Shown in pieces: positions 76 through 32,634 of a DNA stretch of 64,000 nucleotides. The position numbers and the translations under genes were made by a program. Source of the stretch: Zanthoxylum bungeanum (lineage: Eukaryota; Streptophyta; Magnoliopsida; Sapindales; Rutaceae); the NCBI GenBank assembly GCA_019454045.1, contig SKCR01032774.1, forward strand, positions 558,001 through 622,000. Reading direction: 5' to 3'. Each line of letters opens with the position of its first letter. Positions within the stretch are counted from its first letter, which is position 1. The notes under the pieces are model-generated. The model did not search any database. It had not been told where the DNA came from and worked only from the letters and a program-made list of their open reading frames with translations.

Positions 76-720
76 CTACCGATTAAGATCTATGTCCAGT
101 TTACGCTTCTTACCACGATAGTTGTCTGTCCAGTCCAACTTGGAGAGAATGGGGTCGAGTTTTGGTTCAAAGGCTATGATTTGGTCAATTAATTCTTCGG
201 CCTTTGTCGCAGTCAGGAAGATATCATGTACTGATTTCGTGACGAACTCATGTCTTTTGGCTTCCGCAAGAAAAACAAAGAGAAAATCGAAGAAATGCTC
301 AATGTTAAGTAACCCAATGGGCTTCCGATGAATGTTTAAGTGCGCCCATGATGCTACAGTAAACATTTCCTCAAATGTCCCAAGCCCTCCTGGTAATGCA
401 ATAAACGCATCCGCAGTATTGATCATTTCATGAATTTGTTCGGGCATTCCAGATACGATGCGTTCATCTCCATTTGTTTGTCCGATTAAGTGTTCGTCCG
501 CCAAAGGTTTTGGAATGATTCCCAAAACATGACCGACACCATCCTGAACGGCTTTTGAAATGCTTCCCATCAATCCAAAATTGCCACCACCATATACTAG
601 GTGCATATTTCGCTCCGCTATGACTCGCCCCAATTCCTTTGCAGCTTCGATGAATTCTGGTTTATTACCATAATTGGATCCACAGAAAACACAAATTCGC
701 TGCTGTGAAGTTGCTTCCAT
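76..720 (-). CDS. LOG-family cytokinin riboside 5'-monophosphate phosphoribohydrolase-like protein, retroelement-borne
   Basis: 214-aa intact ORF of the LOG (TIGR00730, Rossmann-fold 'lysine decarboxylase-like') family. Typical members release active cytokinin bases from cytokinin riboside monophosphates in the cytosol. Visible landmarks are FCGS (residues 12-15), YGGGNFGLMG (43-52), and the family signature PGGLGTFEE (110-118) with its glutamates. Length is normal for a plant LOG. Two oddities: the usual Arg-Lys of the M-x2-RK-x2-M segment is Gln95-Ile96, so catalysis is doubtful; and the C-terminus is basic then acidic-leucine (GKKRKLDIDLN), which I do not recall from ordinary LOGs. There are no introns, unlike the multi-exon plant LOG genes, as expected for a captured cDNA. 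It lies downstream of the gag-like gene on the same strand, inside the element. A TATA box lies 56-67 bp upstream of the start codon. By eye it is about two-thirds identical to the LOG at 31981-32634. Confidence 0.9.
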   Translation of the reverse strand: MEATSQQRICVFCGSNYGNKPEFIEAAKELGRVIAERNMHLVYGGGNFGLMGSISKAVQDGVGHVLGIIPKPLADEHLIGQTNGDERIVSGMPEQIHEMINTADAFIALPGGLGTFEEMFTVASWAHLNIHRKPIGLLNIEHFFDFLFVFLAEAKRHEFVTKSVHDIFLTATKAEELIDQIIAFEPKLDPILSKLDWTDNYRGKKRKLDIDLNR

Positions 721-775
721 TTTCTCTCTCTTGTTTGGATGTATATCTGGATGTGTTGAAGAGAGAAATGTAGAG

Positions 776-787
776 CTGAATTTATAG
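776..787 (-). promoter_or_regulatory. TATA box of the LOG gene in LOG-RE1
   Basis: On the minus strand CTATAAATTCAG lies 56-67 bp before the LOG start codon. The same 12-mer precedes LOG in LOG-RE2 (31915-31926) and sits at the LTR TATA box (25095-25106). This suggests that LOG can be transcribed from its own core promoter as well as from the LTR. Confidence 0.6.
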
Positions 788-1247
788 AACCTGAAAATGG
801 GTGAGTAATAATTGCACTAGTATCTGCCAAATGACAATTATTAGATGAACGTTAAAATAAATCGTGAAAAGTATAAATCTTGTCGGCGAAAATAAAGATA
901 ATAACAAAAGAAAATCAAATCAAAGCAATTATTAAGGCAACGTAATTGTGTACGCAATACGCCACTAGTTTAATATAAATTCATGAGGGTGCGTCTCAAG
1001 AATTCATTCCTTACTCAGCCACCACTAATGAATTAGCCCTCATCTTTATGATTGCCAAACACCATTTCTTCTGTCTTAAAATGCTCCGTTTGTGTTTTTC
1101 CCTGAAAAACTAACACACAAAATTAAAAAGTTCTACAACATGTATACACAAAATTTGAAAACAAAAATTACAACAAAATTGCATGGGTTGCCTCCCTGCT
1201 AGCGCTAAATTTTTCGTCTTCAGCCAGACGTGACTGAAATCTATCTG
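788..1247 (-). other. Spacer between gag-like gene and LOG in LOG-RE1
   Basis: About 460 bp without a supported ORF. It aligns by eye with the spacer of LOG-RE2 (about 31458-31914). Conserved stretches include the segment just after the gag stop, with the words GCTAGCAGGGAGG and CCATGCAA (minus strand), and a T-rich tract that could act as a 3' splice acceptor. It is probably the leader or promoter region of LOG. Confidence 0.5.
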
Positions 1248-2495
1248 TCAAGGAGGTTTCAATGTCGTTTTGGATGTCCGATTAAAGATAATCTCGTGAG
1301 CGTTGCTTTTGAAGGGTCTCTTCCAACTGTAAAGTGGCAAAAAGAATTTTGTCCCATTTAGTGCTTGAACCATTTTTTTAACCTTTGTTGCTCCAGTTGT
1401 TCCTGAAAAGAAAGAAAGAAAATCAGGAGGTCTCGTATGGTGCTTGACTTTGAATGGAAGTTCCATTCTGTCAAGCTTCTGGGCGATGTCTTTGATTTGT
1501 ACTCCCCAAAACAATGATGTTTCACCTGAATGCTCTGAATCTTCAATAGGGTGTGACATTTGCTCCTCCATTTGCTCTGCTTTTTGCTCCACCTTTTCTT
1601 CACAGATGTATTTTAGGATTTCTTCATTTAGCTCTTCATCTGTCATCTGTGAAATGCATGCTTCAAAATTATCAACCTGAGGATGAAAAGATGTTTCTGA
1701 CATTAGGTCTTCATCCTCTGGTTTGACTGGAATGGATGTTTCAGGTAGATCTTCATCAAACATCATGGTAAAGCATGCTCCAAGATCTTCAGTTTGAGGA
1801 TTGAAAGTTTGATCCTCTGTTGTTGGTGCAGTTGGTACAAACAGCTCAGCTTCTTCGTCAGAGTCAGAATCTGAATAATAAAAATCAAATAGAGACTTTG
1901 CTGGTTTGGGCTCCGGAACTGATACCTCTGTTTCTTGATTCTGCTCAGCCTCCTCTTCTGCTGAAGTGTCATCGTGAAATGCTTGGTCATTTGAAAATGA
2001 TCATTGAGGTATGAAGTTCTGGTTTTCTGTTAATTGTCTGATCTGATCTGTTATTCTCTGTATGGATTCTGTTTGACTATGAACTTGTGCATCAATTTGA
2101 GCTGCCCGTTCTTTGAACCAATCTTTGAGCATGTGAAATATCTGATCTTCCTCTGATGGTTCTGGTTCTTGATGAAAATCATAGATAGATGGTGGATAAG
2201 ATGGAAGATGTGGTTCTGTGAAATATGTTGGTTCTTCGTACCATGAAGGATTTTGATAACTCTGCCACCCTGGATTGTAGTTGTACTCGCAATGATCTCT
2301 CGAGTGGTTACCATTACATATGTCACATCTCCACATTGAGTTATGTTGAGAAAATGTAGTATTGCTTGGTTCTGGCATCCAGTGATAATCGTTGGGCTGG
2401 ACAACAGGCCTCAGAAAACCGGACTGTTGCTCCCAGATGTGGGGTGTATCTTCTTATAACACTCGTAATTTCTCAATCTCCCAGTACTGTTCCAT
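1248..2495 (-). pseudogene. gag-like gene of LOG-RE1, disrupted
   Basis: Reading from a start codon at 2495, the frame encodes an N-terminus conserved with LOG-RE2 (EDTP-IWEQQSGF) but has one TAA stop at about 2456. A zinc knuckle C-x2-C-x3-H-x4-C (CDICNGNHSRDHC) follows, as in plant Ty3/gypsy Gag proteins. The frame then ends at a stop near 2001, where about 15 codons present in LOG-RE2 are missing. The downstream half, 1766-1248, is open and acidic (EDEDL, EEKVEQKAEQMEEQM) and ends in a basic segment (RWKRPF-like) with stop after KPP. The acidic middle and basic end match LOG-RE2 residue for residue over long stretches. I infer a Gag-like nucleic-acid-binding protein; no capsid-domain similarity is obvious to me. 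Confidence 0.65.
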
Positions 2496-2606
2496 TTTTC
2501 AACCACCTGAAATAAAAGAAAGAAATAAAAATTACAGATAAAAATAAAGAAAATAAGATACAAGTAAATTAGATAGCTTCAAAATTAATAACTCAAGAAA
2601 TATAAG

Positions 2607-2624
2607 TCCCCGGCAACGGCGCCA
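2607..2624 (-). other. Primer binding site (tRNA-Asp type) of LOG-RE1
   Basis: On the minus strand TGGCGCCGTTGCCGGGGA is the exact complement of the 3' 18 nt of plant tRNA-Asp(GUC) including CCA. It lies 6 nt inside the LTR end at 2631. This fixes the element's orientation and the LTR edge. Confidence 0.85.
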
Positions 2625-3337
2625 AAAACTTGACCGGTGCATTCACACGCGTATAACGCAAGCGCACATATAATTCAAGTAGTATAAAAATATCAATCCC
2701 ATAAGGACTTAATTCCTACTGTTGTTATTAATTATTGAATCTATTTATTTACAGGTATCTAATTATAGGGAGAAGGGAATTGATTGCTTTTGGTTGGTTG
2801 AATGTGGATTTGCTTAATTAAAATAAAAATAAAATAAACAAAAGAAAATACTAAGGAAAATTACAAAAGACTCAAAAGATCTAGGGTCGTGACTCCACAC
2901 AATACTGTTAAAAATATGAATTGATTTTCTTATTTATGTGTACTAATTCAGTTTGCTAACCTGGAACACGAAAATATATAAAAGCCTCTTCCGATGGTCA
3001 GACGCAAATACCCAGTATAACCCAATTGAACCATATTCCTATGTCAACCACATTACCCTGGATTCATTAAGTTTAAGTTCCAATTATGGCTACCCACGCC
3101 CGACAGGTATATTCCTATCCTGTAAGGAAATCTATTAAAGGGTTATTTATCCTCAAGGAAGATCGTGAGCTATTAAGTCTAAGGCTGAAACCTAAAATCC
3201 CTATGTCTAGTTCATTTTAGATTTACCACATCAATCATATTGGTGATCAGGCAACAGGAAGCATTAAGCTTAAGACTCAATAAACAACCTAAAGAATTAC
3301 CCATAAAAAGAAAATCAATTATTAAGTGTGGATATTG

Positions 3338-3530
3338 ACCCGGCCACGGTTCCGGTTCGGAACCGGAACCGAACCGGAACCGAACCGGTTGGAACCGGAA
3401 GGTTCCGGTTCCAACCGGTTCCGGTTTCGGTTCCGGAACCGAACCGGAATGGGACCGGTTCGGTTGGGGTTCCACCCCAACTCGAACCGGTCCGAACCGG
3501 TGGAACCGTACGGTTCCGGTTGGAACCGTC
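3338..3530. repeat. Left subterminal repeat array of hAT-1
   Basis: About 190 bp made almost only of GGTTCCGG / GGAACCGAACC words on both strands. The right end (6128-6235) and both ends of hAT-2 have matching arrays. hAT subterminal repeats are known transposase-binding sites in this superfamily (Ac/Ds, for example). The long proline-, arginine- and glycine-rich ORFs here are shadows of the repeat. Confidence 0.8.
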
Positions 3531-3541
3531 GGGCCCTACGA

Positions 3542-3628
3542 CCCCCAACGGCTACTAGCCGTTGGGGGCCAAATTTCCCCCAACAGCTAGTGCCGTTGGG
3601 GGATGCAGGGAGCCGTTTGGCTCCCTGC
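3542..3628. other. Cluster of strong hairpins upstream of the hAT-1 transposase
   Basis: Three adjacent inverted repeats. 3542-3568 has perfect 13-bp arms around one base (arms CCCCCAACGGCTA). 3577-3602 is a near copy with imperfect arms. 3605-3628 has perfect 10-bp arms GCAGGGAGCC with a 4-nt loop. They lie between the subterminal array and the transposase start. hAT-2 keeps a version of the first hairpin near 53270-53288. Confidence 0.75.
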
Positions 3629-3859
3629 CAAAAAAAAAAATTTATATTTTTATTATATAAAATAAAAATTACTAATGTACCCCTAAAACGGTTATATTTA
3701 GGGGCATTTTTGGTATCAAAAAAATTCTAAAATTCTATAAATATGATTCATTTTTCATAATTTCATCACACCAAATTCTCAACTCTCTCATTTTCTATAA
3801 TTCTGTTATTCGCAATTATTCAATTTTCTTATTTTTCTTCCTAATTTCGCAAACGAAAA

Positions 3860-5918
3860 ATGGCAAGCTCATCTGAGAACATAATGTCAAATATGCCAAC
3901 CCAAGAGAGCGGCCCTAGTGTCAGTGCGCAATCACGGAGAAGAGAATTTAAGGCTCGGTCCTCGGATATTTTCAAAATTCATTTTAATTTGGAACGCCTA
4001 GAAGATGATTCACAACGAGCAGTTTGCAACTATTGTGGGGTTATCTACAAATTTTCTGGTGGATATGGCAATATGATCAAGCACATGGAAAAACATCATC
4101 CGGTTGAATTTGGCATTGATACGACGCAAACTCAAATGGCCAGGTACGCATCATCAAGTAGAGGTACGAGTGCTTTAGATTTATTTAAATATTCCGATGC
4201 AAAAAATAGAGAAGAATTTGCGAAATTAACTTGTATGGCACATCTTTCTTTAAGCTTTGGTGAAAAACTTCATTTTACTAATTACGTGCATAATGCTTTA
4301 AACCCTTCTGCATGTAGAATGACTCGAAACACAACAAAACGTCATATTTTTAAATTATACAAAGATGGTAAAATTATTTTAAATGAAATATTTAAAGAGA
4401 TGAAAGGTCGTATTTCTGTATGTTCTGATATTTGGAGTGATCATTGGCAAACACACTCATACATGGGTGTGACTTGTCATTGGATTGATGCATCATTTAC
4501 CATGCAAAAACGACTTATTGCATTTAGAGTTTTTGATGACCAACATACTGCACATAATATTTATAGAATGATGAAGGTAATTTTTGATGAATATGGTTTA
4601 GGAGAAAAAATTTTAACAATTGGATTTGATAATGCATCTGCAAATACTGCATCCATCAATGATTTAAAAGAAATATGTCAACCAAATTTAGGAGGTCGGT
4701 TTTTTCATATTCGTTGTACATGTCATGTCCTCAACTTATGTGTGCAAGACGGTCTAAAATTATTATCACATTTCCTTGATCCAATTAAAACGGCACTTAA
4801 CTGTATTTGGTCATATTCTCAAATTAGGAGAGAATGGACCAAGTTTTGTAAAATAAATGGTATTAAACCGATTAAATTTTCAAGAGATGTTCCAACACGT
4901 TGGAATTCTACTTATTTTCTTTTATGTCAAGCATTTCAATACAAAGATGCATTATGTAGTTTTTTTTTCTCAACATGTTCAAAATATCACACTTTATCCT
5001 AGTCAATGGGATATTTGTGAAAAATTTTTAGATATTTTAAAAGTTTTTAATGATGCTACTTTAGTTTTTAGCGGCGTTTATTATCCTACAGCACATTTAT
5101 TTCTTCTTGAGAGTTTAAATATTGTTGGCACTCTCGATGAGCATGTTGACAGTAGCGATCCTAATGATATTGTTTTGTTAGAAGCCATTACTGTTATGAA
5201 GGTAAAATGGTTAAACTATTTTAGAGAAATTCCTTTACTTTATCTTATTGCTGCTGTTTTTGATCCTAGATTTAAATTAGAAGGTTTGAATGATGCTTTA
5301 CAAGCTTATTATGGTTATTTAGGAATATTAGATGAAATTGACATTACTAGATTAATGACGAAATTAAGAAATGATTTAATTGAGTTATTTAATGATTATA
5401 TTGTAAGATATAACTTAGGAACATTAGGTCAATCTAGTAGTAGCGAACCGGTAATTCAAACCAGACTTAGCGCAGGGGATCGTTGGTTATTGCAACGAAA
5501 TAAAAAAGCTAGGGATACGACAACTAATAACCCTGAATTAGATAATTATTTATCTACAAATTTTGAGTTTTCTAATGAAAGTTTATGCAGTAAAAATTTT
5601 AAAATCCTTGAATGGTGGAACCGGCATCAAAATATATATCCGGTTTTATCTATTATTGCTAAAGAGATCTTGGCAGCACCTATTTCCACCGTTGCGGTTG
5701 AGCAAGCCTTCAGCTTGGGAGGTAATATATTGGAAGCTAGGCGATCTTCATTACATCCAAGCACTCTAGAAGCAACAGCTTGTGTGGATGATTGGACTCG
5801 AGCTGATCTGAGACAACAAGAAGATGCCCCCGATGATTGTGAAGATTTGTTCGATAATGCTTCTGCAACAAGTGCAAGCGGAACCGGAGCCGAAGGATCA
5901 ACCGATAATGATGATTGA
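3860..5918 (+). pseudogene. hAT transposase (BED finger, RNase H-like core, hAT dimerisation domain), one frameshift
   Basis: The N-terminal part (3860-5002) starts MASSSENIM. It contains a BED-type zinc finger (Cys56, Cys59, His75, His79), the first catalytic-region motif CSDIWSD, the DNAS-N motif (IGFDNASAN), CHVLNLCVQD and DVPTRWNSTY. The C-terminal part, read in another frame to 5918, carries the hAT dimerisation domain (EWWNRHQNIYP; ISTVAVEQAFSLGG; RSSLHPSTLEA). The frames meet at a run of nine T near 4969-4978; the hAT-2 copy has seven T there. A run of eight would keep the frame open, so each copy is off by one base, in opposite directions. Otherwise this copy looks intact. It may be a recent mutation, a slippage-prone site or a sequencing error. 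Confidence 0.9.
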
Positions 5919-6127
5919 TAATTGTAAAATTATAATTTACAAAGGGGATATGTCTAAAAGACTAAAACTTGTAATGGAACTACGTGAGCTTTGATTCCTC
6001 TCACCATTGGAGGATACGTATGCAACTTAAATTTTTAAATATTTAAGCTCAAGCTCTTCAATGTAATAAATTTTTTTTTTATAAATTTAATCTCATTTTT
6101 TTTATTTTAATTAATTAAAAAAAAAAG

Positions 6128-6241
6128 GAACCGAACCGAACCGGAACCGAACGGTTCGGTTCCGGTTCCACTTAAGTGTGGAACCGGTAACCGGCCGGTT
6201 CGGTTCGGTTCCGAACCGGAACCGAACCGCCGGCCGGTCTA
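6128..6241. repeat. Right subterminal repeat array of hAT-1
   Basis: GGAACCGAACCGG words on both strands, ending at the terminal CCGGCCGGTCT. It mirrors the left array. Confidence 0.75.
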
Positions 6242-6395
6242 GATATTGTGTTTCATCACTTCCATAGAATAAAAATAAATGCCGGGGTTATAAGATCTAC
6301 ATTTAATATTTCTTATCTAGGAATCTTACTTACTATAATATATAAATTATTTTATGTTCTGTTTTCACATGAATTAATAATGTTAAACATTTAAA

Positions 6396-6530
6396 ACCAG
6401 CCATATAGGCGGTAATCCATTTAGTCCAACTACATCAGCCATATAGGCGGTAATTATTTGTCATATAAAGACCAGCCATATAGGCGGTAAGGTAATTTAT
6501 ATTTAAACTAGCCATATAGGCGGTAATAAA
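6396..6530 (-). repeat. Iterated GCCATATAGGC motif in the LOG-RE1 LTR
   Basis: Four copies of CAGCCATATAGGCGGTAA at irregular spacing of about 35-40 bp (near 6399, 6435, 6469, 6508). The core GCCATATAGGC is nearly palindromic. The same motif is repeated four or five times in every LTR of the family in this window, although the sequence between copies varies. Confidence 0.8.
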
Positions 6531-6834
6531 GTCTACCATTAATTAATCCAGTTAAATTATAATTTAAATATTATAATTAAGTGAGATTAACCTAGATAAT
6601 TATATTAAATATTTCACCTTTCACCCCAACAGAAATTTAACTATAAAACATAAAAGAATAGAGAAGAAGAAGAGAACTACTATTACTGAAAATTAAAATA
6701 CATAAATTAAAAAAATATTATTTATATATACAAAGCTAGATGCTTCCTATAAAATCATGGAAAAGTCCCCAAGGAAAGCACGAGGAGAAATGAGCATCTG
6801 AGGCCTTCAATTTATAGGCAACATTTCGGGTTGG

Positions 6835-7193
6835 GCGTCGCGACGCTAAACTGCTCGGCGTCGCGACGCCCGAATAGTGAATACAGGTCAACGCGGCTTG
6901 ACCACGCGTCTGTCGGTGCAATAATGGCTCGCCACGTGTCTCACTATGAATGGGCGATGACGCGGTCCAATAGATAAGCGACACGTGGAAGCAGCTGGTT
7001 GGTTGAGCTTTCGGTCAAATGGGAACATGACACGTGGCAGCTTGTGATTCGTCGGTGATTCGGTCCAATGATGAAGTGACACGTGGCACGCGGTTTGGGG
7101 TGGTCCAATGAGATGACGACATGTGGCAATCTGCGCACGTTAGCATGAGCGGCGTACGTTAGCAACTTCAGCGCATGATAAGCGTCGCGACGC
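6835..7193 (-). promoter_or_regulatory. U3 promoter region of the LOG-RE1 LTR
   Basis: Contains three perfect 12-bp palindromes GCGTCGCGACGC (6835-6846, 6858-6869, 7182-7193), CACGTG boxes near 6934, 6982, 7030 and 7080 in GACACGTGG/CCACGTGTC context, and three GGTCCAAT (CCAAT-type) words. A CTATAAAT-like TATA box is read on the minus strand at about 6810-6818. The arrangement parallels the U3 of LOG-RE2 although most of the sequence has diverged. Confidence 0.6.
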
Positions 7194-7381
7194 CAAAATG
7201 ACAAAAATGCCCTTTTTGGTTGTTTTTATCCATTTCGCCCCCAAATTGTCTCCAATGCTTTCCAAACTTTATTTATCTGCAAAATAACACAAAATACATC
7301 AAAACGTTCACAAAAATCGAGAAACTATACGAAATATTAGGTTAAATGAGTGGGAAAAAGTGATGTATTTACCACTCATCA

Positions 7382-8990
7382 AGCTTCATCTTTGCTCCTC
7401 AGCAAATACACATAACATAATCTTGTGCTATCATTGATAAAAGTGAGAAAGTACTTTTTACCGCCTCTTGTTTGCACAATATTCATATCACACACATCAG
7501 TGTGTACAAGTTCCAAGGGTTCAGAACTTCGTTCTATGGAATGAAATGATGTTCTATATATTTTTGCTTCAACACATGTCTCACACTTATGTTGGCTATC
7601 AATTTCAGATTTAGGTATAAGGTCCATGTTAATTAATTTACGCATCGTATCATAATTAAAATGTCCTAACTTCCCATGCCATACATTTTGTGACTCAATA
7701 ATATAAGCAGACGTTGTAGCTTTATTATTAATAGCAATGTGTCGATTGACAGTCATTACATTGAATTTGAAAAGGCCATCAGTGAGGTATCATTTTCCTA
7801 CATAGACATCATTTTTGGTCAATACAACCTTGTCAGAAATAAATACAAGCTTAAAGTCATTATTACTAAGGAGAGAACTCGAGACCAAGTTCTTCCGCAT
7901 ATCTGGAACATGCAAAACATTCTTCAATGTAAGCTCCGTTCCGGATGTCATCTTCAGAACCATTGTGCCTTGTCCAACCACTCTAGAGGTAGACGAGTTT
8001 CCCATAGTCAGATGATCGCCACCATCGACCTTCTGATATGAGGAAAAACATCTTGCTATCAACACAGATATGACGAGTAGCCTCAGTGTCTACTCGGATT
8101 CCCAACCAAGTTGGCTTCAATTACCACTGCTGAGAGGTTCATCTTTGAGATCTCATTAGTTAACTGCTCATCTTCAGCGACATGAGCCTCATTTTTCTTT
8201 TTCTTGCCCTTGTCCTGAGACTTTTTGTTTCTGCAGTCCTTTGCAATATGACCGCTTTTTCCACAGTTGAAGCACTTCTCCTTGAACTTCTTGTTTTGCT
8301 TGGGAAGAATCAGCTTCACTGTTCTCTCTCTTTTTGCTACCTTTTCCATCCTCGATGATGTTGGCCTTAAACTCCATAGTCTTGTAGCTGGCATTTTCGG
8401 ACTTTCTATTGTCCTCTTTGATCCTCAATCAAACTCCAAGATCTTCAAGGCTCATCTGCTTCTTTTTATGTTTCAGATAGTTCCTGAAGTCCTTCCATGA
8501 TGGAGGCAACTTTTCAATGATGGTGGCAACTTGAAACGTCTCACAGAGTTTCATACCTTCATCCAATATTTCATGAATGATCAATTACAGTTCACCCAAC
8601 TGAGACAACCTACCCACGATGAATTTCTTTGGTCCAGCATCCTCGGTTTTATATTTCATATCGAGAGATTCACAGAGAATCTTCGCAGAAACCATGCCTT
8701 GGTACACGACCATGTCTCTTCCCGCAGTTGCTTGGATATTTCTGATTCCTCTCCCCAAGATCCGGAGGATCTTTGAGGTATTTAGCCAACTGTAGAGTTG
8801 TCGGGTAGAACAACATTTTGCTCTGCCACTGTTTAAATTTTGCCCCATCAAACTTTTCCGGTTTTTCTCCATGAGAGACCGATACTGTGATGTTTCCGCT
8901 AGCCATATGTAACTGGAAAACCAACAGGGATCAATAAGTCTACAAAAGATAAATTGTACAACGATCAACAAATGATCTTGTTCAAATGAT
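7382..8990 (-). pseudogene. Ty1/copia gag-pol fragment (copia-1), truncated by LOG-RE1
   Basis: In minus-strand order: a Gag start with the copia-like phrase EKFDGAKFKQWQSKM (ATG about 8906); a zinc knuckle CFNCGKSGHIAKDC (about 8280-8240) followed by a Lys-rich tail; a degraded protease region where the expected DSGATRHIC appears as DTEATRHIC; NVLHVPDMRKNLVS (about 7900); and the GAG-pre-integrase/integrase N-terminus with the HHCC zinc motif (WHGKLGH... HKCETC) and the first integrase Asp in VHTDVCD. The integrase reading stops at 7382, where the LOG-RE1 LTR begins. Several frameshifts are present. The rest of pol presumably lies left of the window beyond LOG-RE1. Confidence 0.85.
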
Positions 8991-19334: not shown

Positions 19335-19336
19335 AT

Positions 19337-19348
19337 TGGTATCAGAGC
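19337..19348 (+). other. Primer binding site (initiator-Met) of copia-2
   Basis: TGGTATCAGAGC, the standard complement of the plant tRNA-iMet 3' end, 2 nt after the LTR end. Confidence 0.9.
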
Positions 19349-20787
19349 ATGAACTCGATCCTTGACCTGTTAGCTATGGAACATAATCAACCCTTAAATT
19401 GTCCCAAATTCCTTGATGAGACTGAATATTTATATTGGAAGGTTCGCATGAGAGTGTTCCTTAAGTCCTTATATGTGAGGGTACGAATGGCAGTAGAGTA
19501 CGGGGTGGAAACCTCCCGTAGTTATGGTTGATGAAGTCTATTCCCCTAAAGACAAACCGACTTGGACCAAGGATGAATTTGACGCTAACAACAGGAAAAG
19601 CAAAGCTATTAATGTCATTCATTGTGCTGTGTGCTCGACTGAGTTTAAGAGAATCTCAATATGTGAGATAGCCAAGGATGCATGGGACATCCTACAGACT
19701 ACGCATGAGGGCACACTGTCTGTTAAAAATAATAAACTCCAAGATCTTGCTACTAGGTTTGAGGTCGCCAGAATGAAGGAAGATGAGATATTTGACGAGT
19801 TCTATTCTGAGATTAACGACATAGTCAACTCTAGTTTTAACCTAGGCGGGACCATACTTATCAGTAGGATAGTAAGGAAAATCCTTAGATCTTTGCCTAA
19901 CAAGTTCCTATCTAAAATCACCACCATCGAAGAAAGCAATGACCTCGATCATCTTAAATTAGAAGACCTCGTAGGAAAACTACAGGTTTATGAGAAGAAA
20001 CTTTCTGGATATAAAAAACTAAAAACTATAGCGATGAAGATCGTGAAGGAAGTTTCTCATGATCCATCAAGTGATGATGATGATATCCTCACAGATCATA
20101 ATTTGGCCATGTTTGCAAAGAGGTTTAAGAAATTTCTTAAGCTTAAGGAGGTTGGCCATGATAGGAATAAGGATGATATGCCTAGAGAGAGTATGTATAG
20201 TATGATAGAGTCTAGAGAGGATATAGTAGCAAACCCCATGGTATTCAATGCCATGAGTGTGAAGGTTTTGGGCATATTAAATTTGAATATCCTACTTACC
20301 TAAAATATAAGGGTAAGAAAGCCATGACAGCCTCTTTTAATGATTCAGAAGGTGGCTATACTTTTGATGAGTCTCCTAAAGATAAGAGCATTTTTATGAC
20401 CTTTTCTGCTAGTGTGACTGGTGAGAGGGAGGAAAACAGTAGTGACGAATATGCTAGATCTTATTTCTCTCACGATGAGTCTGTAGATGAGGATAATCTT
20501 TAGGTACCTTATGTTGAACTGTTTAATGAGAGTTTAGCTATCAAAAAGACGAACATAGAGGTTGAAGAAAGTAGAGCTAAAAAGGAATGAAGCTCAAGCT
20601 AAGTTTGAGAACAGCCTTGTGATGAGTGATGACCTCGAGGAGAGGAATAAAGATCTAGTTGATAGATTTAAAATTTTAGAAACTGAACTTGAAGATGTTA
20701 GAACGCAGCTGTCTATATTTTCTAGTGAGAATAAAAAACTAGACTGCATATTAGGGATTAGTGTTGAGCCTAATTGCGATAAGGCGT
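19349..20787 (+). pseudogene. Copia-2 gag (UBN2/DUF4219-type), first part
   Basis: The start MEHNQPLNCPKF with LDETEYLYWKVRMRVFLKS is the usual N-terminus of plant copia Gag. A one-base shift near 19500 moves the frame to 19524-20303, which holds the UBN2-type core (AKDAWDILQTTHEGT; KLQDLATRFEVARMKEDEIFDEFYSEINDIVN; ILRSLPNKF). Another shift follows at the first zinc knuckle near 20240-20285, where the last Cys of CHECEGFGHIKFEC reads as Tyr. A Ser/Asp-rich tract (to about 20500) and a coiled-coil-like segment (20562-20780, LEERNKDLVDRFKILETELEDVR) come next. The gene is then cut by the solo LTR at 20788 and resumes at 22650. Confidence 0.85.
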
Positions 20788-24343: not shown

Positions 24344-24538
24344 TTTATTGATGAGTGGTATTTATACCACTATTTCCCACTCATTTGACCTAATGTTTTG
24401 TATTGTTTCTCGAGTTTTATGAACGTTTTGATGTGTTTTGTTGTTATTTTGCAGATAAATAAAGTTTGGACAGCACTGGAGGCAATTTGGGGCAAAACTG
24501 GACAAAAATGCGCCAACTGGAAAATTTCAGTCTTCAGC

Positions 24539-25106
24539 GCGTCGCGACGCAGGATCCTTGCGCGCCGCGACGCCCAGCGTGCACCGGAGATGCTAAAATG
24601 CGCCCTGGTCAACGGGTCAACAAGTTGAAAAGTTTGACTTTGCTAACATGCGCCTGCCACGTGTCACCATCACAACGGAGATGCTAACATGCGCCGTGCC
24701 ACGTGTCAAGATCTCATTGCTTGGCCGGCCACCGCCATTACGTGTCATGCCACGTGTCGCCACGTCAGCGTCCACATCAGCAGCCACGTCAGCTAGTCAA
24801 CCGAGTCAACGAGCCACGTCATCATCAGCCAATCACAGCGCACCACGTGTCAAGCTCTCATTCGTCCGACGGCCGCCGCCCCACGTGTCAAGCCACGTGT
24901 CGCCACATCAGCACGATGACGTAAGCAATGACGTCATGAACAGTAGACACGTCAGCATGACGTAAGCGATGACGTCATGAACAGTGCCAAGTCAACGGGT
25001 CAAATCTGAGTCAACCAACCAGCGCGTGACACGTGTCACTGTAGCGCGCGTCGCGACGCTGGCCGCGCGGCGCGACGCCAGACCCTATCGACGCCTATAA
25101 ATTCAG
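24539..25106 (+). promoter_or_regulatory. LTR promoter with ACGT-core array, paired CpG palindromes and TATA box
   Basis: Sixteen ACGT cores lie between about 24658 and 25035, mostly as CCACGTGTC, CCACGTCAG or TGACGTCA/TGACGTAA. Such sequences are G-box/ABRE-like and as-1-like sites, bound by plant bZIP and bHLH factors. GTCAAC words (W-box cores on the other strand) are interspersed. Perfect GCGTCGCGACGC palindromes flank the array (24539-24550, 25048-25059), each followed by a one-mismatch partner (24562, 25067). CTATAAATTCAG at 25095-25106 is a good TATA context, so transcription should start near 25130. Factor binding is inferred, not shown. Confidence 0.7.
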
Positions 25107-25270
25107 AACCAGATTTCAGAATTTTGTATCCCATCCTCTCTCTTCAATTCTTCTAAAGAGAGAGTTTCTCTCTCTAAACTCTTTTAGTTTTTATTTTTTT
25201 TACTTTTGTAAATAATTTTAATTACTTTTTGTAATAATAGTAATTTAGTTTTTACTTTTTACTTTCTTTT

Positions 25271-25350
25271 ACAGTTTTTACTATTTACTATTTACTTTTT
25301 ACAGTTTTTACTATTTACTATTTACTTTTTACAGTTTTTACTATTTACCG
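25271..25350 (+). repeat. 30-bp tandem repeat in the LTR leader
   Basis: Three units of ACAGTTTTTACTATTTACTA plus a T-rich tail starting at 25271, 25301 and 25331, the last one partial. The 3' LTR has the same block. Confidence 0.85.
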
Positions 25351-25463
25351 TGATGCGGTAATTTCTTTATGTTCGGGTGAAAGGTAATTTCTTTTACTAT
25401 TACTATTTAGATTAATCTCCCTTAAAATAATATACTTACTATTTAAATTGGACTTAATCAGGA

Positions 25464-25600
25464 TACCGCCAGATTGGTCGGTGAATAATAAAACATATAT
25501 TCCGCCTTTATGGCTGGTTATTTTGGTTCCGCCTTTATGGCTGGTTATTTTGGTTCCGCCTTTATGGCTGGTTATTATGGTTCCGCCTTTATGGCTGGTT
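25464..25600 (+). repeat. 27-bp tandem CCGCCTTTATGGCTGG repeats in the LTR
   Basis: Four exact-register units starting at 25502, 25529, 25556 and 25583, plus a variant at 25464. Because 27 is nine codons, a chance ORF here repeats PPLWLVILV. This is the plus-strand form of the GCCATATAGGC motif in the other LTRs; here the units are homogenised at one fixed spacing. Confidence 0.85.
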
Positions 25601-26495
25601 GATATTAATCACAAGTTTTTATATTATTTTAATGGGAGATATCTAAATAAGTAGTAGTAGGATTAATTCCTTTTACCTTAACATTTTATTTTATTTTACT
25701 TTTCAGTATTTTTATTTTATGTCTTTTATTTTTATGTGTTTATTAGTCCTAGTTATGTGTTAGTTAACTAGGGGTTGTGATGACTTTTAATATCAATAGT
25801 TTATAAGGGATTATTTTATAGTTTGGATAATTAATAAGTTTACTTATTAAGTCTTAAGCTTAATGCTTCTTATTGTCTGATCACCAATAAGATAGATATG
25901 GTAAATCTAAAATGAACTAGACATAGGGATTTTAGGTTTTAGCCTTAGACTTAATAGCCCACGATCTTCCTTGAGGATAGATAACCCTTTAATAGATTTC
26001 CTTACAGGATAGGAATATACCTGTCGGGCGGGGGTAGCCATAATTGGAACTTAGATTTAATGAATCCAGGTAATGTGGTTGACATAGGAATATGGTTCAA
26101 TTGGATTATACTGGGTATTTGTAGTTGACCATCGGAAGAGGCTTTTACATAATTTAGTGTTCCAGGTTAGTAAACTGATTTATTACACAAACATAAAATA
26201 ATCACTTCATCTTTTAAATGATACTTAAAAGAAATCACAACCTTATATCTTTTTATCTGTATTTTCCTTAGTATTTTCTTTTATCTTTTTAGTTATTTAT
26301 TTAGCAAATCTACAATCAAACCAAATCAATCAAGCAATCAATTACATTCTCCCTTTAATTAGATATTGTAATTAAATAGATTCAATAATTAATAACAACA
26401 GTAGGAATTAAGTCCTCGTGGGATCGATATTTTTATACTACTTGAACGATACGTGCGCTTGCGTTATACGTGTGTGTTTACGCCGGTCAAGTTTT

Positions 26496-26513
26496 TGGCG
26501 CCGTTGCCGGGGA
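26496..26513 (+). other. Primer binding site (tRNA-Asp) of LOG-RE2
   Basis: TGGCGCCGTTGCCGGGGA, an exact complement of the 3' end of plant tRNA-Asp, 6 nt after the LTR. Confidence 0.9.
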
Positions 26514-26621
26514 CTTATTTCTTGAGTTGTTAATTTTGAAGCTATCTAATTTACTTGTATCTAATTTTCTTTATTTTTATCTATAATTTTTATTTCTTTC
26601 TTTTAATTTCAGGTAACTAAA

Positions 26622-27866
26622 ATGGAACACTACGGGAGATTGAGAGACTACGTGCTTTACAAGAAGATACACCCCAAATCTGGGAGCAACAGTCCGGTTT
26701 CTGTGGCCTGTTGAACAGCCCAATGATTATCACTGGATGCCAGAACCAAGCAATGCTACATTTGTTCATCAGAACGAAATGGGGAGATGTGTGATTTGTG
26801 ATAGTAACCACCCGAGCGATCAATGTATATATCGATCATCAGAGTGGGAGAATTTTGGAGGCAATCATGCAATGAAGAGCCATCACATTTCACAGAGCCA
26901 CATTTTCCATCTTATCCACCATCTACCTTTGATCTTCATCAACAACCAGAACCATCAGAGGAAGATCAATTGATTCACATGTTCAAAGAACAAGCAGCTC
27001 GATTTGATACTCAAGTTCAAAGTAACACAGAATCCATACAGAGAATGACAGATCAGATCAGACAATTCACAGAAAACCAGAACTACATACCTCAAGAATC
27101 AGTTCCAGATGACACTGATGAAGCCTTCAATTACCAATCATTTCACAATGACATTTCAACAGAGGAGGAGGCTGAGCAGTATCAACAACCAGAGGTATCA
27201 GTTCAGGAACCCGAACCGGCAAAGTCTCGATTTGATTTCTATTATTCAGATTCTGACGAGGATGAAGCTGATCCATTTATACCAACTGCACCAACAACGG
27301 AGGATCAAACTTTCAAGCCTCAAAATGAAGATCTTGGAGAGTGCTTTGCAAAAATGTTTGAAGAAGATCTACCTGAGACAATCATTTCACCCAGATCAGA
27401 GGATGAAGACCTAAAATCTGACATTTCTTTTCATCCTCAGGTTGACAATTTTGAAACATGTATTTCACAGATGACAGATGAAGAACTAAATACAGAAATT
27501 TTAAAATACATCTGTGAAGAAAAGGTGGAACAAGAAGCAGAACAAATGAAGGAGCAAATGTCTGACCTTAATAAAGATCCAGAGCATTCAGGAAAAACAT
27601 CGCTGTGTTGGGGAGTACAAATCAAAGATATCACCCAGAAGCTTGACAGAATGGAACATCCATTCCAAGTCAAACACCATACGAGACCTCCTGATTTTCT
27701 TTCTTTCTTTTCAGGTACTACTGGAGCAACAAAAGTTAAAAAGGTGACACGAGCAATGAAAAAGACAAAATTCTTTTTGCCACTTTACCGTTGGAAGAGA
27801 CCATTCAAAAGCAACGCTCACGGGATTGTCTTTAAACGGACATCCAAAACGACATTGAAACTTTGA
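26622..27866 (+). pseudogene. gag-like gene of LOG-RE2, copy A
   Basis: The start ATG at 26622 matches the gag start in LOG-RE1 but the first 30 codons are frameshifted. From 26737 the frame reads MPEPSNATF and a zinc knuckle C-x2-C-x3-H-x4-C (CVICDSNHPSDQC). A shift near 26840 moves to the main open frame, 26823-27866. That frame has an N-terminal Pro/Glu-rich part, an acidic middle (DSDEDEADPF; EDEDLKSDISFHPQ), a predicted coiled coil (EKVEQEAEQMKEQM) and a basic C-terminus (RWKRPFKSNAHG). The last codons are changed by the inverted-duplication junction at about 27861, so the protein ends KTTLKL. It is probably Gag-like. The shifts differ from those in copies B and C, so sequencing error is possible. 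Confidence 0.7.
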
Positions 27867-28025
27867 AAAATTTGGACTAAAAATAAAAACAACATACAAA
27901 CTAAAAACAAGGTACTAATCAACTAAATCCCTCCCCCAAACCTAAATGAGACATTGTCCCCAATGTCTTAAACAGTAAAAGGAGAATTAGAAGGTTGTAC
28001 CTGGTTAGCTGAAATCTAAAGGAAA

Positions 28026-28683
28026 TTAAAGGTTAAGGTCCAGATTAATTCGACGCCTCTTACCACGATCGTCCTCAGACCAATTTATTTTTGATAGGAT
28101 AGGGTCAACTTGTGGTTCATAGGCTATAAGTTGGTCTATTAGATCCGGAGCAAGTCTGGCAGTGAAGAGGAGGTCTTTCATCGGCTTTGACACGAACCCA
28201 TTTCTCTCCGAGCATCATCAAGAAACACACAAAGAAAATCATAAAATCCATCAACGTTGAGCAAACCAATTGGTTTCTGGTGTATATTCAGGTTCGCCCA
28301 AGATAGAACTATAAAAATTTCCTCCAATGTTCCCAAGCCACCTGGCAAAGCAATAAAAGCATCAGCACGGTTAATCATTTCTACCAAACGTTCAGACATA
28401 CCTGATACAATCAGTTCCTCTCCGTTTGATGATCCAATAAGATTTGCATCTGCCAAGGGTTTTGGGACGATTCCCAAAACGTGACTGCCTCCTTCCTGTA
28501 CGGCTTTTGAAACGATCCCCATAAGTCCGAGATTTCCTCCGCCATATATTAAATGCATATTCCTTGCGGCTAAGACTCGACCCAACTCCTGTGCTGCTTC
28601 TATGTATTGTGGTTTAGTACCAAAGTACTACCTACCGCAAAACACACAAATGTTTTCAACTGTCTTCTTGAAGTGGCTTCCAT
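28026..28683 (-). pseudogene. LOG, inverted copy in LOG-RE2, broken
   Basis: Reverse-complement copy of the LOG at 31981-32634. At least two small indels break it: one near 28610-28640 (the segment after CVFCG) and a 2-nt insertion near 28200 (after LDDAR). This leaves a 135-aa internal reading frame that still contains PGGLGTLEE. Its upstream TATA context is mirrored as well. It is antisense to the element transcript, so LTR read-through would produce antisense LOG sequence linked to sense LOG. Confidence 0.9.
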
Positions 28684-29199
28684 TTTTCTATGTATTTCTT
28701 TTTCAAATTAGGATGCCTTCAAAAGTGCAATGACGGGCTGAATTTATAGTACCTGAAAAAGGGTGAGTAATAATAGCAGAAGTATCTTCCAGAGGACGTT
28801 TGTTAGCTAAACAACAAAAGAAATCGTGAAAGGTCAAAAAGTCTGGATCCTGTCTACGAAAATAAAGATAATTACAACAGAAAAGCGAATCAAAGCAATA
28901 ATTAAGGTAACAGAATTGTGTATGCAATACGCCACTCGCTTAGTATAAATTCATTAGAATGAGTCTCAAGATTTCATTCTTTATTCAGCCATCGCTAATG
29001 AATTGTTTCTTATATTTGCTTGCCAAACACAATTCCTTCTGTCTTAAAATGCTTCGTTTGTGCCTTTCCCTACAAAAATAACACACAAAATTAAAAAGTT
29101 CACACAAAATATGAAAATAAATCATAACAAATTGCATGGGTTGCCTCCCTGCTAGCGCTGAATTTTCGTCTTCAGCCAGACGTGACTGAAATCTATTTG

Positions 29200-30299
29200 T
29201 CAAGGAGGTTTCAATGTCGTTTTGGATGTCCGTTTAAAGACAATCCCGTGAGCGTTGCTTTTGAATGGTCTCTTCCAACGGTAAAGTGGCAAAAAGAATT
29301 TTGTCTTTTTCATTGCTCGTGTCACCTTTTTAACTTTTGTTGCTCCAGTAGTACCTGAAAAGAAAGAAAGAAAATCAGGAGGTCTCGTATGGTGTTTGAC
29401 TTGGAATGGATGTTCCATTCTGTCAAGCTTCTGGTGATATCTTTGATTTGTACTCCCCAACACAGCGATGTTTTTCCTGAATGCTCTGGATCTTTATTAA
29501 GGTCAGACATTTGCTCCTTCATTTGTTCTGCTTCTTGTTCCACCACCTTTTCTTCACAGATGTATTTTAAAATTTCTGTATTTAGTTCTTCATCTGTCAT
29601 CTGTGAAATACATGTTTCAAAATTGTCAACCTGAGGATGAAAAGAAATGTCAGATTTTAGGTCTTCATCCTCTGATCTGGGTGAAATGATTGTCTCAGGT
29701 AGATCTTCTTCAAACATTTTTGCAAAGCACTCTCCAAGATCTTCATTTTGAGGCTTGAAAGTTTGATCCTCCGTTGTTGGTGCAGTTGGTATAAATGGAT
29801 CAGCTTCATCTCCTCCTCAGAATCTGAATAATAGAAATCAAATCGAGACTTTGCCGGTTCGGGTTCCTGAACTGATACCTCTGGTTGTTGATACTGCTCA
29901 GCCTCCTCCTCTGTTGAAATGTCATTGTGAAATGATTGGTAATTGAAGGCTTCATCAGTGTCATCTGGAACTGATTCTTGAGGTATGTAGTTCTGGTTTT
30001 CTGTGAATTGTCTGATCTGATCTGTCATTCTCTGTATGGATTCTGTGTTACTTGAACTTGAGTATCAAATCGAGCTGCTTGTTCTTTGAACATGTGAATC
30101 AATTGATCTTCCTCTGATGGTTCTGGTTGTTGATGAGATCAAAGGTAGATGGTGGATAAGATGGAAAATGTGGCTCTGTGAAATGTGATGGCTCTTCATT
30201 GCATGATTGCCTCCAAAAATTCTCCCACTCTGATCGATATATACATTGATCGCTCGGGTGGTTACTATCACAAATCACACATCTCCCCATTTCGTTCTG
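29200..30299 (-). pseudogene. gag-like gene of LOG-RE2, copy B (inverted)
   Basis: Inverted, near-identical copy of gag copies A and C. It is split into several frames by small indels (near 29330, 29435, 29815 and 30135). The natural C-terminus with KPP then stop is kept at 29200. The zinc-knuckle region lies at the loop end of the arm. Confidence 0.85.
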
Positions 30300-30358
30300 A
30301 TGAACAAATGTAGCATTGCTTGGTTCTGGCATCCAGTGATAATCATTGGGCTGTTCAA

Positions 30359-31457
30359 CAGAACGAAATGGGGAGATGTGTGATTTGTGATAGTAACCAC
30401 CCGAGCGATCAATGTATATATCGATCAGAGTGGGAGAATTTTTGGAGGCAATCATGCAATGAAGAGCCATCACATTTCACAGAGCCACATTTCCATCTTA
30501 TCCACCATCTACCTTTGATCTTCATCAACAACCAGAACCATCAGAGGAAGATCAATTGATTCACATGTTCAAAGAACAAGCAGCTCGATTTGATACTCAA
30601 GTTCAAAGTAACACAGAATCCATACAGAGAATGACAGATCAGATCAGACAATTCACAGAAAACCAGAACTACATACCTCAAGAATCAGTTCCAGATGACA
30701 CTGATGAAGCCTTCAATTACCAATCATTTCACAATGACATTTCAACAGAGGAGGAGGCTGAGCAGTATCAACAACCAGAGGTATCAGTTCAGGAACCCGA
30801 ACCGGCAAAGTCTCGATTTGATTTCTATTATTCAGATTCTGACGAGGATGAAGCTGATCCATTTATACCAACTGCACCAACAACGGAGGATCAAACTTTC
30901 AAGCCTCAAAATGAAGATCTTGGAGAGTGCTTTGCAAAAATGTTTGAAGAAGATCTACCTGAGACAATCATTTCACCCAGATCAGAGGATGAAGACCTAA
31001 AATCTGACATTTCTTTTCATCCTCAGGTTGACAATTTTGAAACATGTATTTCACAGATGACAGATGAAGAACTAAATACAGAAATTTTAAAATACATCTG
31101 TGAAGAAGGTGGTGTGGAACAAGAAGCAGAACAAATGAAGGAGCAAATGTCTGACCTTAATAAAGATCCAGAGCATTCAGGAAAAACATCGCTGTGTTGG
31201 GGAGTACAAATCAAAGATATCACCCAGAAGCTTGACAGAATGGAACATCCATTCCAAGTCAAACACCATACGAGACCTCCTGATTTTCTTTCTTTCTTTT
31301 CAGGTACTACTGGAGCAACAAAAGTAAAAAGGTGACACGAGCAATGAAAAAGACAAAATTCTTTTTGCCACTTTACCGTTGGAAGAGACCATTCAAAAGC
31401 AACGCTCACGGGATTGTCTTTAAACGGACATCCAAAACGACATTGAAACCTCCTTGA
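30359..31457 (+). pseudogene. gag-like gene of LOG-RE2, copy C
   Basis: Starts at the zinc knuckle just right of the loop, so it lacks the gag N-terminus. A one-base loss near 30490 shifts the frame. The long open part is 30556-31335 (259 aa, acidic middle and coiled coil as in copy A), then one missing T near 31325 stops the frame before the basic C-terminus. The original stop is at 31455-31457. It is followed by the spacer and the intact LOG. Confidence 0.75.
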
Positions 31458-31914
31458 CAAATAGATTTCAGTCACGTCTGGCTGAAGACGAAAAATTCAG
31501 CGCTAGCAGGGAGGCAACCCATGCAATTTGTTATGATTTATTTTCATATTTTGTGTGAACTTTTTAATTTTGTGTGTTATTTTTGTAGGGAAAGGCACAA
31601 ACGAAGCATTTTAAGACAGAAGGAATTGTGTTTGGCAAGCAAATATAAGAAACAATTCATTAGCGATGGCTGAATAAAGAATGAAATCTTGAGACTCATT
31701 CTAATGAATTTATACTAAGCGAGTGGCGTATTGCGTATTGCATACACAATTCTGTTACCTTAATTATTGCTTTGATTCGCTTTTCTGTTGTAATTATCTT
31801 TATTTCGTAGACAGGATCCAGACTTTTTGACCTTTCACGATTTCTTTTGTTGTTTAGCTAACAAACGTCCTCTGGAAGATACTTCTGCTATTATTACTCA
31901 CCCTTTTTCAGGTA
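31458..31914 (+). other. Spacer upstream of LOG in LOG-RE2
   Basis: No supported ORF. Contains T-rich tracts ending in TTTTTGTAG (31581-31589) and CTTTTTCAG (about 31903-31911) that resemble 3' splice acceptors, so LOG could be reached by splicing of a long LTR transcript. Conserved with LOG-RE1 (788-1247). Confidence 0.5.
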
Positions 31915-31926
31915 CTATAAATTCAG
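31915..31926 (+). promoter_or_regulatory. TATA box of the LOG gene in LOG-RE2
   Basis: CTATAAATTCAG, 55-66 bp upstream of the ATG at 31981. Position and sequence are conserved in LOG-RE1 (776-787), and the same 12-mer forms the LTR TATA context. Confidence 0.6.
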
Positions 31927-31980
31927 CCCGTCATTGCACTTTTGAAGGCATCCTAATTTGAAAAAGAAATACATAGAAAA

Positions 31981-32634
31981 ATGGAAGCCACTTCAAGAAG
32001 ACAAGTTGAAAACATTTGTGTGTTTTGCGGTAGTACTGTTGGTACTAAACCACAATACATAGAAGCAGCACAGGAGTTGGGTCGAGTCTTAGCCGCAAGG
32101 AATATGCATTTAATATATGGCGGAGGAAATCTCGGACTTATGGGGATCGTTTCAAAAGCCGTACAGGAAGGAGGCAGTCACGTTTTGGGAATCGTCCCAA
32201 AACCCTTGGCAGATGCAAATCTTATTGGATCATCAAACGGAGAGGAACTGATTGTATCAGGTATGTCTGAACGTTTGGTAGAAATGATTAACCGTGCTGA
32301 TGCTTTTATTGCTTTGCCAGGTGGCTTGGGAACATTGGAGGAAATTTTTATAGTTCTATCTTGGGCGAACCTGAATATACACCAGAAACCAATTGGTTTG
32401 CTCAACGTTGATGGATTTTATGATTTTCTTTGTGTGTTTCTTGATGATGCTCGGAGAAATGGGTTCGTGTCAAAGCCGATGAAAGACCTCCTCTTCACTG
32501 CCAGACTTGCTCCGGATCTAATAGACCAACTTATAGCCTATGAACCACAAGTTGACCCTATCCTATCAAAAATAAATTGGTCTGAGGACGATCGTGGTAA
32601 GAGGCGTCGAATTAATCTGGACCTTAACCTTTAA
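31981..32634 (+). CDS. LOG-family cytokinin riboside 5'-monophosphate phosphoribohydrolase-like protein, retroelement-borne, intact
   Basis: 217-aa complete ORF. Family landmarks: FCGS (15-18), YGGGNLGLMG (46-55), and PGGLGTLEE (113-121) with Glu120/Glu121. In the M-x2-RK-x2-M segment the Arg is kept (Arg98) but the Lys is Leu99, unlike the copy at 76-720, which has neither. LOG enzymes act in the cytosol as dimers to release free cytokinin bases. The tail is unusual: a basic patch GKRRR followed by LDLNL at the very C-terminus, which fits the LxLxL form of the plant EAR repression motif. A nuclear or repressor role is speculative. The start is supported by the shared MEATS N-terminus and the A-rich context. 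The gene is intronless, has its own TATA box, and lies between the gag-like gene and the 3' LTR. A broken inverted copy is at 28026-28683. Confidence 0.92.
   Translation: MEATSRRQVENICVFCGSTVGTKPQYIEAAQELGRVLAARNMHLIYGGGNLGLMGIVSKAVQEGGSHVLGIVPKPLADANLIGSSNGEELIVSGMSERLVEMINRADAFIALPGGLGTLEEIFIVLSWANLNIHQKPIGLLNVDGFYDFLCVFLDDARRNGFVSKPMKDLLFTARLAPDLIDQLIAYEPQVDPILSKINWSEDDRGKRRRINLDLNL

Follow-up and report, generated by a model that had tools for sequence, protein, structure and literature searches.

A YgdH/LOG domain has been described in Ty3/gypsy consensus sequences of Citrus and, in the unfiltered set, of Populus (Alvarado-Marchena et al. 2022, PMC9289625), in a paper that cites Steinbauerova et al. 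(2011). We analysed a stretch of 64,000 nucleotides of the Zanthoxylum bungeanum genome (contig SKCR01032774.1, positions 558,001 to 622,000; hereafter 'the window') and found in it two diverged long terminal repeat (LTR) retroelements (RE1 and RE2), each with an intronless gene of the plant cytokinin-activating LOG type, and one solo LTR. The occurrence of LOG in gypsy elements is thus already published (PMC9289625); what is new is that the element LOGs form a single clade, that they carry a basic and LxLxL-containing C-terminal tail and that active-site residues have been lost. A literature search for a LOG/EAR (ERF-associated amphiphilic repression) retroelement, with most subscription journals outside its coverage, yielded nothing beyond that paper.

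We conclude that RE1 and RE2 are members of a large Ty3/gypsy-type family that has a retrocopied plant LOG as its 3' accessory gene and passes it on with the elements, and that in the RE2 type this LOG is an element gene maintained by purifying selection. As to its function we tentatively favour a reading that falls somewhat short of probable: LOG would be a selected accessory gene in elements with swapped modules, and its product mainly a nuclear, TOPLESS (TPL)-binding protein with LOG fold, in which, for the RE1 subclade at least, the release of cytokinin would have been altered or lost.

Architecture of RE1 and RE2

An earlier note on this DNA, made from the letters alone, had described two elements that share the order LTR, primer-binding site (PBS), gag-like gene and LOG, with the gag-like gene broken in both, and a solo LTR as the trace of a third past copy. 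We could confirm this arrangement (Table 1): RE1 shows it as far as it is readable, the gag-like open reading frame (ORF) is indeed broken in both, and the solo LTR has its own target-site duplication. RE2 is a whole element (24349-36209) with TG...CA ends and a 5-bp target-site duplication, TTTAT, and has the structural hallmarks of Ty3/gypsy elements (LTRs, target-site duplication, PBS and a polypurine tract (PPT)-like stretch). RE1, which lies on the minus strand, agrees with RE2 in its LTR end and PBS and exits the window at base 1. The PBS TGGCGCCGTTGCCGGGGA is of a type that we take to be tRNA-Asp, and the PBS and gag features do no more than suggest the Ogre/Tat/Athila (OTA) group (PMC6317226). 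The two LTRs of RE2 differ by 77 substitutions in 2119 aligned sites and by 38 indels, which at typical plant substitution rates would date the insertion to about 1.4-2.7 million years ago.

The interior of RE2, as the earlier note had missed, is a zigzag of a forward, a reverse and again a forward segment (copies A, B and C; Table 1). Because of this zigzag the LOG piece on the minus strand at 28178-28585 is a broken duplicate within RE2 and not part of another element. The same zigzag is present on a second contig, C47662, in which LOG and spacer are 100% identical to those of the window and the inverted spacer copy 98%, and inversions were also seen in two of ten other genome stretches (L078 and L084). 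Template switching of the reverse transcriptase (RT) at insertion was rejected as the source, since copies B and C differ by only 12 substitutions in 2395 sites (and 14 indels) versus 77 in 2119 for the LTRs; the zigzag is either later than the RE2 insertion or an assembly effect shared with C47662.

The LOG protein and its relatives

Both LOG ORFs are full length (214 and 217 residues) and 65.9% identical, close to the two-thirds noted earlier, and both match PF03641 (106 bits for RE1 and 119 bits for RE2, with a Pfam cut-off of 27). The best solved-structure match of both is Arabidopsis AtLOG3; the model of the RE1 protein (pLDDT, the predicted local distance difference test, 87, with a low-confidence tail) has AtLOG3 2a33 as best PDB match (E 1.1e-21). 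The PGGxGTxxE motif is intact in both proteins.

A protein search with the RE2 LOG gave 7,862 matches below the E-value limit, 120 of which were listed. Among the matches listed were putatively element-borne relatives of 75-87% identity in environmental records, of 55-56% in Populus and of 49-53% in Malvaceae and Paulownia. A tree with host LOGs, as the earlier note had proposed, consisted of 59 rows, and in it the 35 chosen LOG-RE-type rows formed one clade (support 95/95) beside the host LOGs; 16 host rows (LOG3-type and AtLOG8 only) and 8 bacterial rows fell outside it. The tree gave no support for a bacterial origin, since it places the element LOG as sister to plant LOGs. A scan of bacterial and archaeal genomes provided 22 bacterial loci, of which seven were used as outgroup. 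An IMG/VR search with the RE2 LOG and with the listed protein P0078 found no relative, and one with our alignment A1 found 24 distant LOG-like loci. In peanut, the number of exons per LOG gene ranges from 3 to 7 and is mostly 7 (PMC13257298). The element LOGs consist of one open frame, which suggests that the gene was captured via mRNA.

Changes in the active site

In the bacterial type-II LOG CgLOGII, activity was abolished by Ala at the Arg or the Lys of the MHxRK-equivalent motif, or at the Thr or Glu of the PGG motif (PMC5379747). We counted these residues in the 105 LOG-RE-type rows with a PGG motif (17 of 122 rows lack the motif and were left out). The adenine-site Lys was lost in 95 rows (Leu in RE2, Ile in RE1) and kept in 10, nine of which have no LxLxL, P0039 being the exception. 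The catalytic Arg was kept in 95 rows and replaced by Gln in RE1 and eight matches and by His in P0120. RE2 keeps both the catalytic Arg and the Glu. In the host set, Arg-Lys is present in each of the 108 rows that have the motif (a further 12 are without it). The distribution of Lys and LxLxL fits a stepwise change, although the Lys-keeping rows may instead be host genes.

These replacements suggest that cytokinin release is reduced or lost in some lineages, at least in the RE1 subclade. The description of the element protein as a hormone-releasing enzyme in the earlier note thus becomes doubtful: RE1 is without catalytic Arg and both proteins are without adenine-site Lys, although Arg and Glu in RE2 speak for it. 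It could nevertheless be proposed that the element LOG still functions as an enzyme of cytokinin activation, which would raise active cytokinin, keep cells dividing or meristematic and, as a consequence, lead to more germline insertions, with the tail only positioning the enzyme. The retained fold and PGGxGTxxE motif, the presence of Arg in 95 of the 105 rows with the motif and the strong constraint on the gene (see below) are in line with this proposal, but the loss of Lys, and of Arg in the RE1 subclade, at positions where Ala abolished CgLOGII activity is not, and by itself the proposal leaves the LxLxL tail unexplained; we consider it somewhat unlikely.

The C-terminal tail

The usual end of LOG-RE-type proteins is [KR]KR[KR]-[LVI]-D-L-x-L-x-L, a basic cluster followed by LxLxL, and the RE2 tail contains LDLNL. 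Among LOG-RE-type proteins of 200-260 residues, RE1 and RE2 included, 80 of 100 have LxLxL in the last 12 residues. After dereplication at 80% the motif is present in 25 of 31 proteins, versus a mean of 3.0 and a maximum of 9 in 1000 tail shuffles. None of 114 host LOG3-type proteins of the same length range has it. When matches of any length were considered, LxLxL occurred in the last 15 residues of 88 of the 120 listed matches and in 0 of 120 host LOG3-type matches. For the 28 of 31 tails that passed a frame filter, the entropy is 0.22-0.44 bits in the L columns and 1.92 and 2.41 bits in columns -4 and -2. This contrast is supporting only and partly built in, as the filter required the L columns to be L/I, L/M and L/R/P.

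The LxLxL pattern is that of the EAR motif, and the C-terminal EAR motif of the downy-mildew effector HaRxL21 binds TPL (PMC9956375, PMC7446885). The basic cluster may be a nuclear localisation signal, and the conservation of cluster and LxLxL together suggests a role that is different from, or additional to, hormone release.

The tailed proteins might instead be an ordinary host LOG subfamily that was captured by elements more than once. The basal rows (P0071 and P0116 of Xanthoceras, and P0034) keep Arg-Lys, are without LxLxL and may be host genes, and the host comparison set consisted of LOG3-type proteins and AtLOG8 only. On the other hand, the tail is absent from all 120 host LOG3-type matches, and in the whole host-genome copies that were read the tailed LOG lies between LTRs of the RE1/RE2 family, so that such repeated capture seems improbable to us.

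The family in the host genome

The host genome was searched in an assembly of 3.96 Gb in 51,709 contigs. The best 150 scored of 70,458 first-look candidates for the RE2 LOG were 96-100% identical to the query, and 148 of these 150 had no stop, in a ranking that favours intact copies. LOG could be aligned without gaps over 651-654 bases in 28 of 28 flank-bearing copies (the window copy and its C47662 twin included), and in nine of these copies the gag-like stretch of the RE2 type found no match. Ten longer stretches were read: five have the order LTR, PBS, gag-like gene, LOG, 3' region and LTR, two (L078 and L084) are rearranged by inversions, and three (C3294, L080 and L079) share the LTR family, LOG and the 3' region with the others but differ in the coding DNA upstream. 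In C3294 (stretches L115 and L076, which were read apart) this DNA encodes Retrotrans_gag (at 81 bits) and the RT, RNase H and integrase domains, followed by an ORF that resembles the carlavirus nucleic-acid-binding protein (NABP) and then by LOG. Its LTRs are 95% alike and its PBS is the same as that of RE2; a perfect 5-bp target duplication was looked for at this copy and not seen. The order of gag and then RT, RNase H and integrase is that of Ty3/gypsy elements, in a gag-pol form that is known from this one copy.

Unlike in C3294, no pol was found in RE2, which makes RE2 non-autonomous, and because a sister copy, C3294, has a coding region for gag and for all three pol enzymes named above, the elements of the window look non-autonomous. 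The gag-like gene of the window gave no domain in a Pfam scan. In a three-protein set it matched residues 380-449 of the C3294 gag (26% identity, E 7e-7) and, over 23 residues, the protease-region ORF of C3294 (57%, E 1e-4), and because of both matches we take it as a gag-pol remnant. The family thus has a gag-pol form (one copy) and short, non-autonomous forms that keep the LTRs, the PBS, a gag remnant and LOG.

That LOG is carried by the gag-pol copy as well as by non-autonomous copies, and that its nucleotide-phosphate motif is kept, would suit a protein that serves element replication, as a nucleotide-binding or capsid-associated factor whose tail binds RNA or an element protein rather than TOPLESS. 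The tail, however, has EAR spacing at the C-terminus, the commonest location of EAR motifs, and we regard a role in replication as unlikely.

The NABP-like ORFs were found upstream of LOG at 3872-4453 of L076 (after pol) and at 3706-4209 of L080, and have a GRSTY.KKRRAK pattern and Cys residues. The ORF of L080 scored above both Pfam cut-offs (PF05515 27.6 bits and PF01623 26.0 bits, with cut-offs of 23 and 20.9), and that of L076 above the cut-off for PF01623 (22.4 bits) and below that for PF05515 (18.5 bits); ORFs of L080 upstream of the NABP-like ORF matched no Pfam family above cut-off. The Pfam matches suggest that a Ty3/gypsy element here carries a nucleic-acid-binding protein of the plant-virus type.

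Selection on the LOG gene

A set of copies was chosen blind to LOG, by means of the spacer between gag-like gene and LOG: of 40 scored spacer matches (2,994 candidates) 30 loci were fetched and four were dropped (the window locus, its C47662 twin and the inverted copies of both), so that 26 remained. LOG was present in all 26 and fully open in 12. Its pairwise ratio of non-synonymous to synonymous divergence (dN/dS) was 0.083 (codon bootstrap 0.050-0.128). For the gag-like stretch dN/dS was 0.611 (0.476-0.781; 25 copies with at least 200 mapped codons) and 0.598 without the ends, values that may be inflated since the reference frame was taken from RE2 copy C, which itself contains indels; for the same reason the count of open gag-like genes (0 of 26) is unusable. 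The lower LOG values obtained with copies from the protein search (0.021 for 9 copies and 0.048 for 17) are biased to intact copies and were not used as evidence. The SERL site was unaltered in 24 of the 26 copies (the others have one gap and one adjacent stop), and so were the last 14 residues of LOG (the others have one gap and one change outside LxLxL).

The suggestion in the earlier note that the ORF is kept by selection as an element gene therefore holds for the RE2 type. Of the outcomes it had named as speaking against this, LOG was not missing from the other copies and dN/dS was not near 1, although 14 of the 26 LOGs are interrupted by a stop or by an indel that changes the frame. The broken copies would agree with LOG being functionless passenger debris that was copied along with the elements, but many of the breaks are indels of one or two bases, which assembly errors could also produce, and the difference in dN/dS between LOG and the gag-like stretch, the unaltered site and tail and the single old clade make that explanation very improbable indeed.

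In the spacer-picked copies (L085-L114) the spacer differs by 2% (p 0.021, close by choice) and LOG has a dS of 0.113, with synonymous differences of 11-13% in LOG and the gag-like stretch. Mosaic copies or constraint on the spacer may explain this contrast.

Probable exchange of the LOG module

For the LOGs of RE1 and RE2 a dN/dS of 0.12 was found (0.058-0.204; 886 usable of 1000 bootstraps) at a dS of 1.84, which is near saturation. Between the gag-like pieces of RE1 and RE2 the synonymous divergence is only 0.25-0.27 (Fisher p about 2e-12 for the excess in LOG), and the LTR part is 85.7% identical. A fit with three segments placed the best breaks at 31926 and about 32684 (RE2 coordinates), the first of which falls at the end of a 38-base block that is conserved between the elements just upstream of LOG (Table 1). 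Given the contrast in dS and the position of the breaks, the LOG module has probably been exchanged between element lineages, and recombination of LOG between such lineages is the simplest account. Capture before the copies diverged, as stated in the earlier note, agrees with these results; a simple co-divergence of the LOGs with their elements does not. The 38-base block could be read as a TATA box or as a 3' splice site, and in P0007 and P0011 an extension at the N-terminus seems to be its read-through.

A possible function of the element LOG

Extra ORFs are common in plant retrotransposons and mostly have no known function; the LOG described here is under strong purifying selection. From its fold, its tail and its altered site, which are results of sequence comparison or modelling, we infer nuclear entry, TOPLESS binding, lost catalysis and a benefit to the element. 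The element LOG protein would enter the nucleus by means of the basic cluster and bind TOPLESS-type co-repressors with its LxLxL tail, and the recruited co-repressors might then damp host responses that limit the element, with cytokinin release changed or lost at least in the RE1 subclade. A wider proposal, that the family encodes effector-like genes, with a nuclear, TOPLESS-recruiting LOG-fold protein that has given up or is giving up hormone release beside a carlavirus-NABP-like protein, is in our view doubtful. Under this proposal the contribution of the short forms may be the LOG protein, because LOG is the only gene without obvious damage that the non-autonomous forms keep.

Several observations weigh against a nuclear, TOPLESS-binding role. 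The RE1 tail, LDIDLNR, is not strictly LxLxL, and six of the 31 dereplicated proteins (RE1, P0021, P0034, P0043, P0054 and P0071) are without this pattern, of which P0034 and P0071 keep Arg-Lys. LxLxL alone is insufficient for TPL binding (PMC7446885). The RE2-type LOG may still be an enzyme, since it keeps PGGxGTxxE, Arg and Glu, and the Ala replacements were made in a bacterial type-II LOG. To these must be added the 14 broken LOGs, the possibly inflated gag ratio, and the dN/dS values of 0.40 and 0.87 for the gag-like pieces of RE1 versus RE2. Moreover, the selection result from genome copies covers the RE2 type only, and for the Gln (RE1) subclade selection is suggested by the sequence that the matches share.

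If a TOPLESS-recruiting role is true, a retrotransposon uses the hijack of a co-repressor like some plant pathogens do, and some 'LOG' annotations in plant genomes are element effectors and not hormone genes.

Features of the window

Table 1. Positions of the parts of RE1, RE2 and the solo LTR in the window
Feature	Position	Strand	Remarks
RE1 LOG, 214 residues	76-720	-	Gln in place of catalytic Arg (MPEQIHEM); C-terminal tail GKKRKLDIDLNR
RE1 copy of conserved block upstream of LOG	775-812	-	
RE1 gag-like ORF, second piece	1248-1766	-	
RE1 gag-like ORF, first piece	2001-2378	-	zinc-knuckle-like CDICNGNHSRDHC
RE1 PBS	2607-2624	-	
RE1 LTR	2631-7381	-	split by hAT element (about 3337 to about 6540); Pfam hAT domains
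Solo LTR, RE1/RE2 family	20788-22644	-	duplication ACGCC
RE2 5' LTR	24349-26489	+	duplication TTTAT at 24344-24348 and 36210-36214
RE2 PBS	26496-26513	+	TGGCGCCGTTGCCGGGGA; just inside 5' LTR
RE2 zigzag copy A	26708-27861	+	
RE2 gag-like ORF, zigzag copy A, 347 residues	26823-27866	+	weak matches to C-terminal part of C3294 gag and to protease-region piece
RE2 zigzag copy B, inverted	27862-30361	-	broken gag-like gene and broken LOG (ORF 28178-28585)
RE2 zigzag copy C	30352-32797	+	gag-like gene and intact LOG
RE2 conserved block	31890-31927	+	TTTTTCAGGTACTATAAATTC, ending TTTTTCAGGTACTATAAATTCAGC; just upstream of LOG; 36/38 bases common to RE1
RE2 LOG, 217 residues	31981-32634	+	tail GKRRRINLDLNL
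RE2 G-rich tract (PPT-like)	33953-33964	+	adjoins 3' LTR
RE2 3' LTR	33965-36209	+	

The window also contains two hAT-type elements in opposite orientation, one inside the RE1 LTR (3337-6540, its edges being the points where the LTR matches stop and resume) and one at 50924-53183, with matched arms that are 93-96% alike. Fragments of copia-type gag, zinc-knuckle and GAG-pre-integrase were found at 7379-8394 and 19524-20303, and the RE1 LTR starts at the edge of the first. At 37711-38116 and 58173-59110 there are AT-rich repeat units (AAATAAGAAAC...ATAATCTC), and the GC content of 58001-60000 is 17%.

Comparison with known systems

The YgdH/LOG elements of Citrus and Populus are like the RE1/RE2 family in having a LOG-type domain inside plant gypsy-type LTR retrotransposons; the accessible text of PMC9289625 names the LOG domain only, and the tail, the site change, the selection test and the non-autonomous LOG form come from the present analysis. 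The same paper describes Phalaenopsis gypsy elements with an ORF for an AlkB-type m6A demethylase, likewise a host enzyme that was captured and kept through many copies. That enzyme is active in vitro, whereas the element LOG has an altered site and an added repression-type tail. The plant LOGs AtLOG3 (2a33) and AtLOG8 (1ydh) have the same fold, are 42-45% identical to the RE1 LOG in the structure match and share PGGxGTxxE; compared with these, the element LOG is intronless, has an extra tail, has lost the Lys in 95 of 105 rows and has lost the Arg in the RE1 subclade. With pathogen effectors that have an EAR motif, such as HaRxL21 (PMC7446885, PMC9956375), the element LOG shares a C-terminal LxLxL, but it is encoded by a retrotransposon and its TPL binding is predicted from the motif. 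The extra ORFs of Ogre/Tat/Athila elements, as presented by Neumann et al. (2019, PMC6317226), likewise lie 3' of the polyprotein, in elements with large LTRs and a PBS of a tRNA type listed for non-chromoviruses; because extra ORFs were counted there from at least 250 codons, a LOG of 217 codons falls under the cut of that survey.

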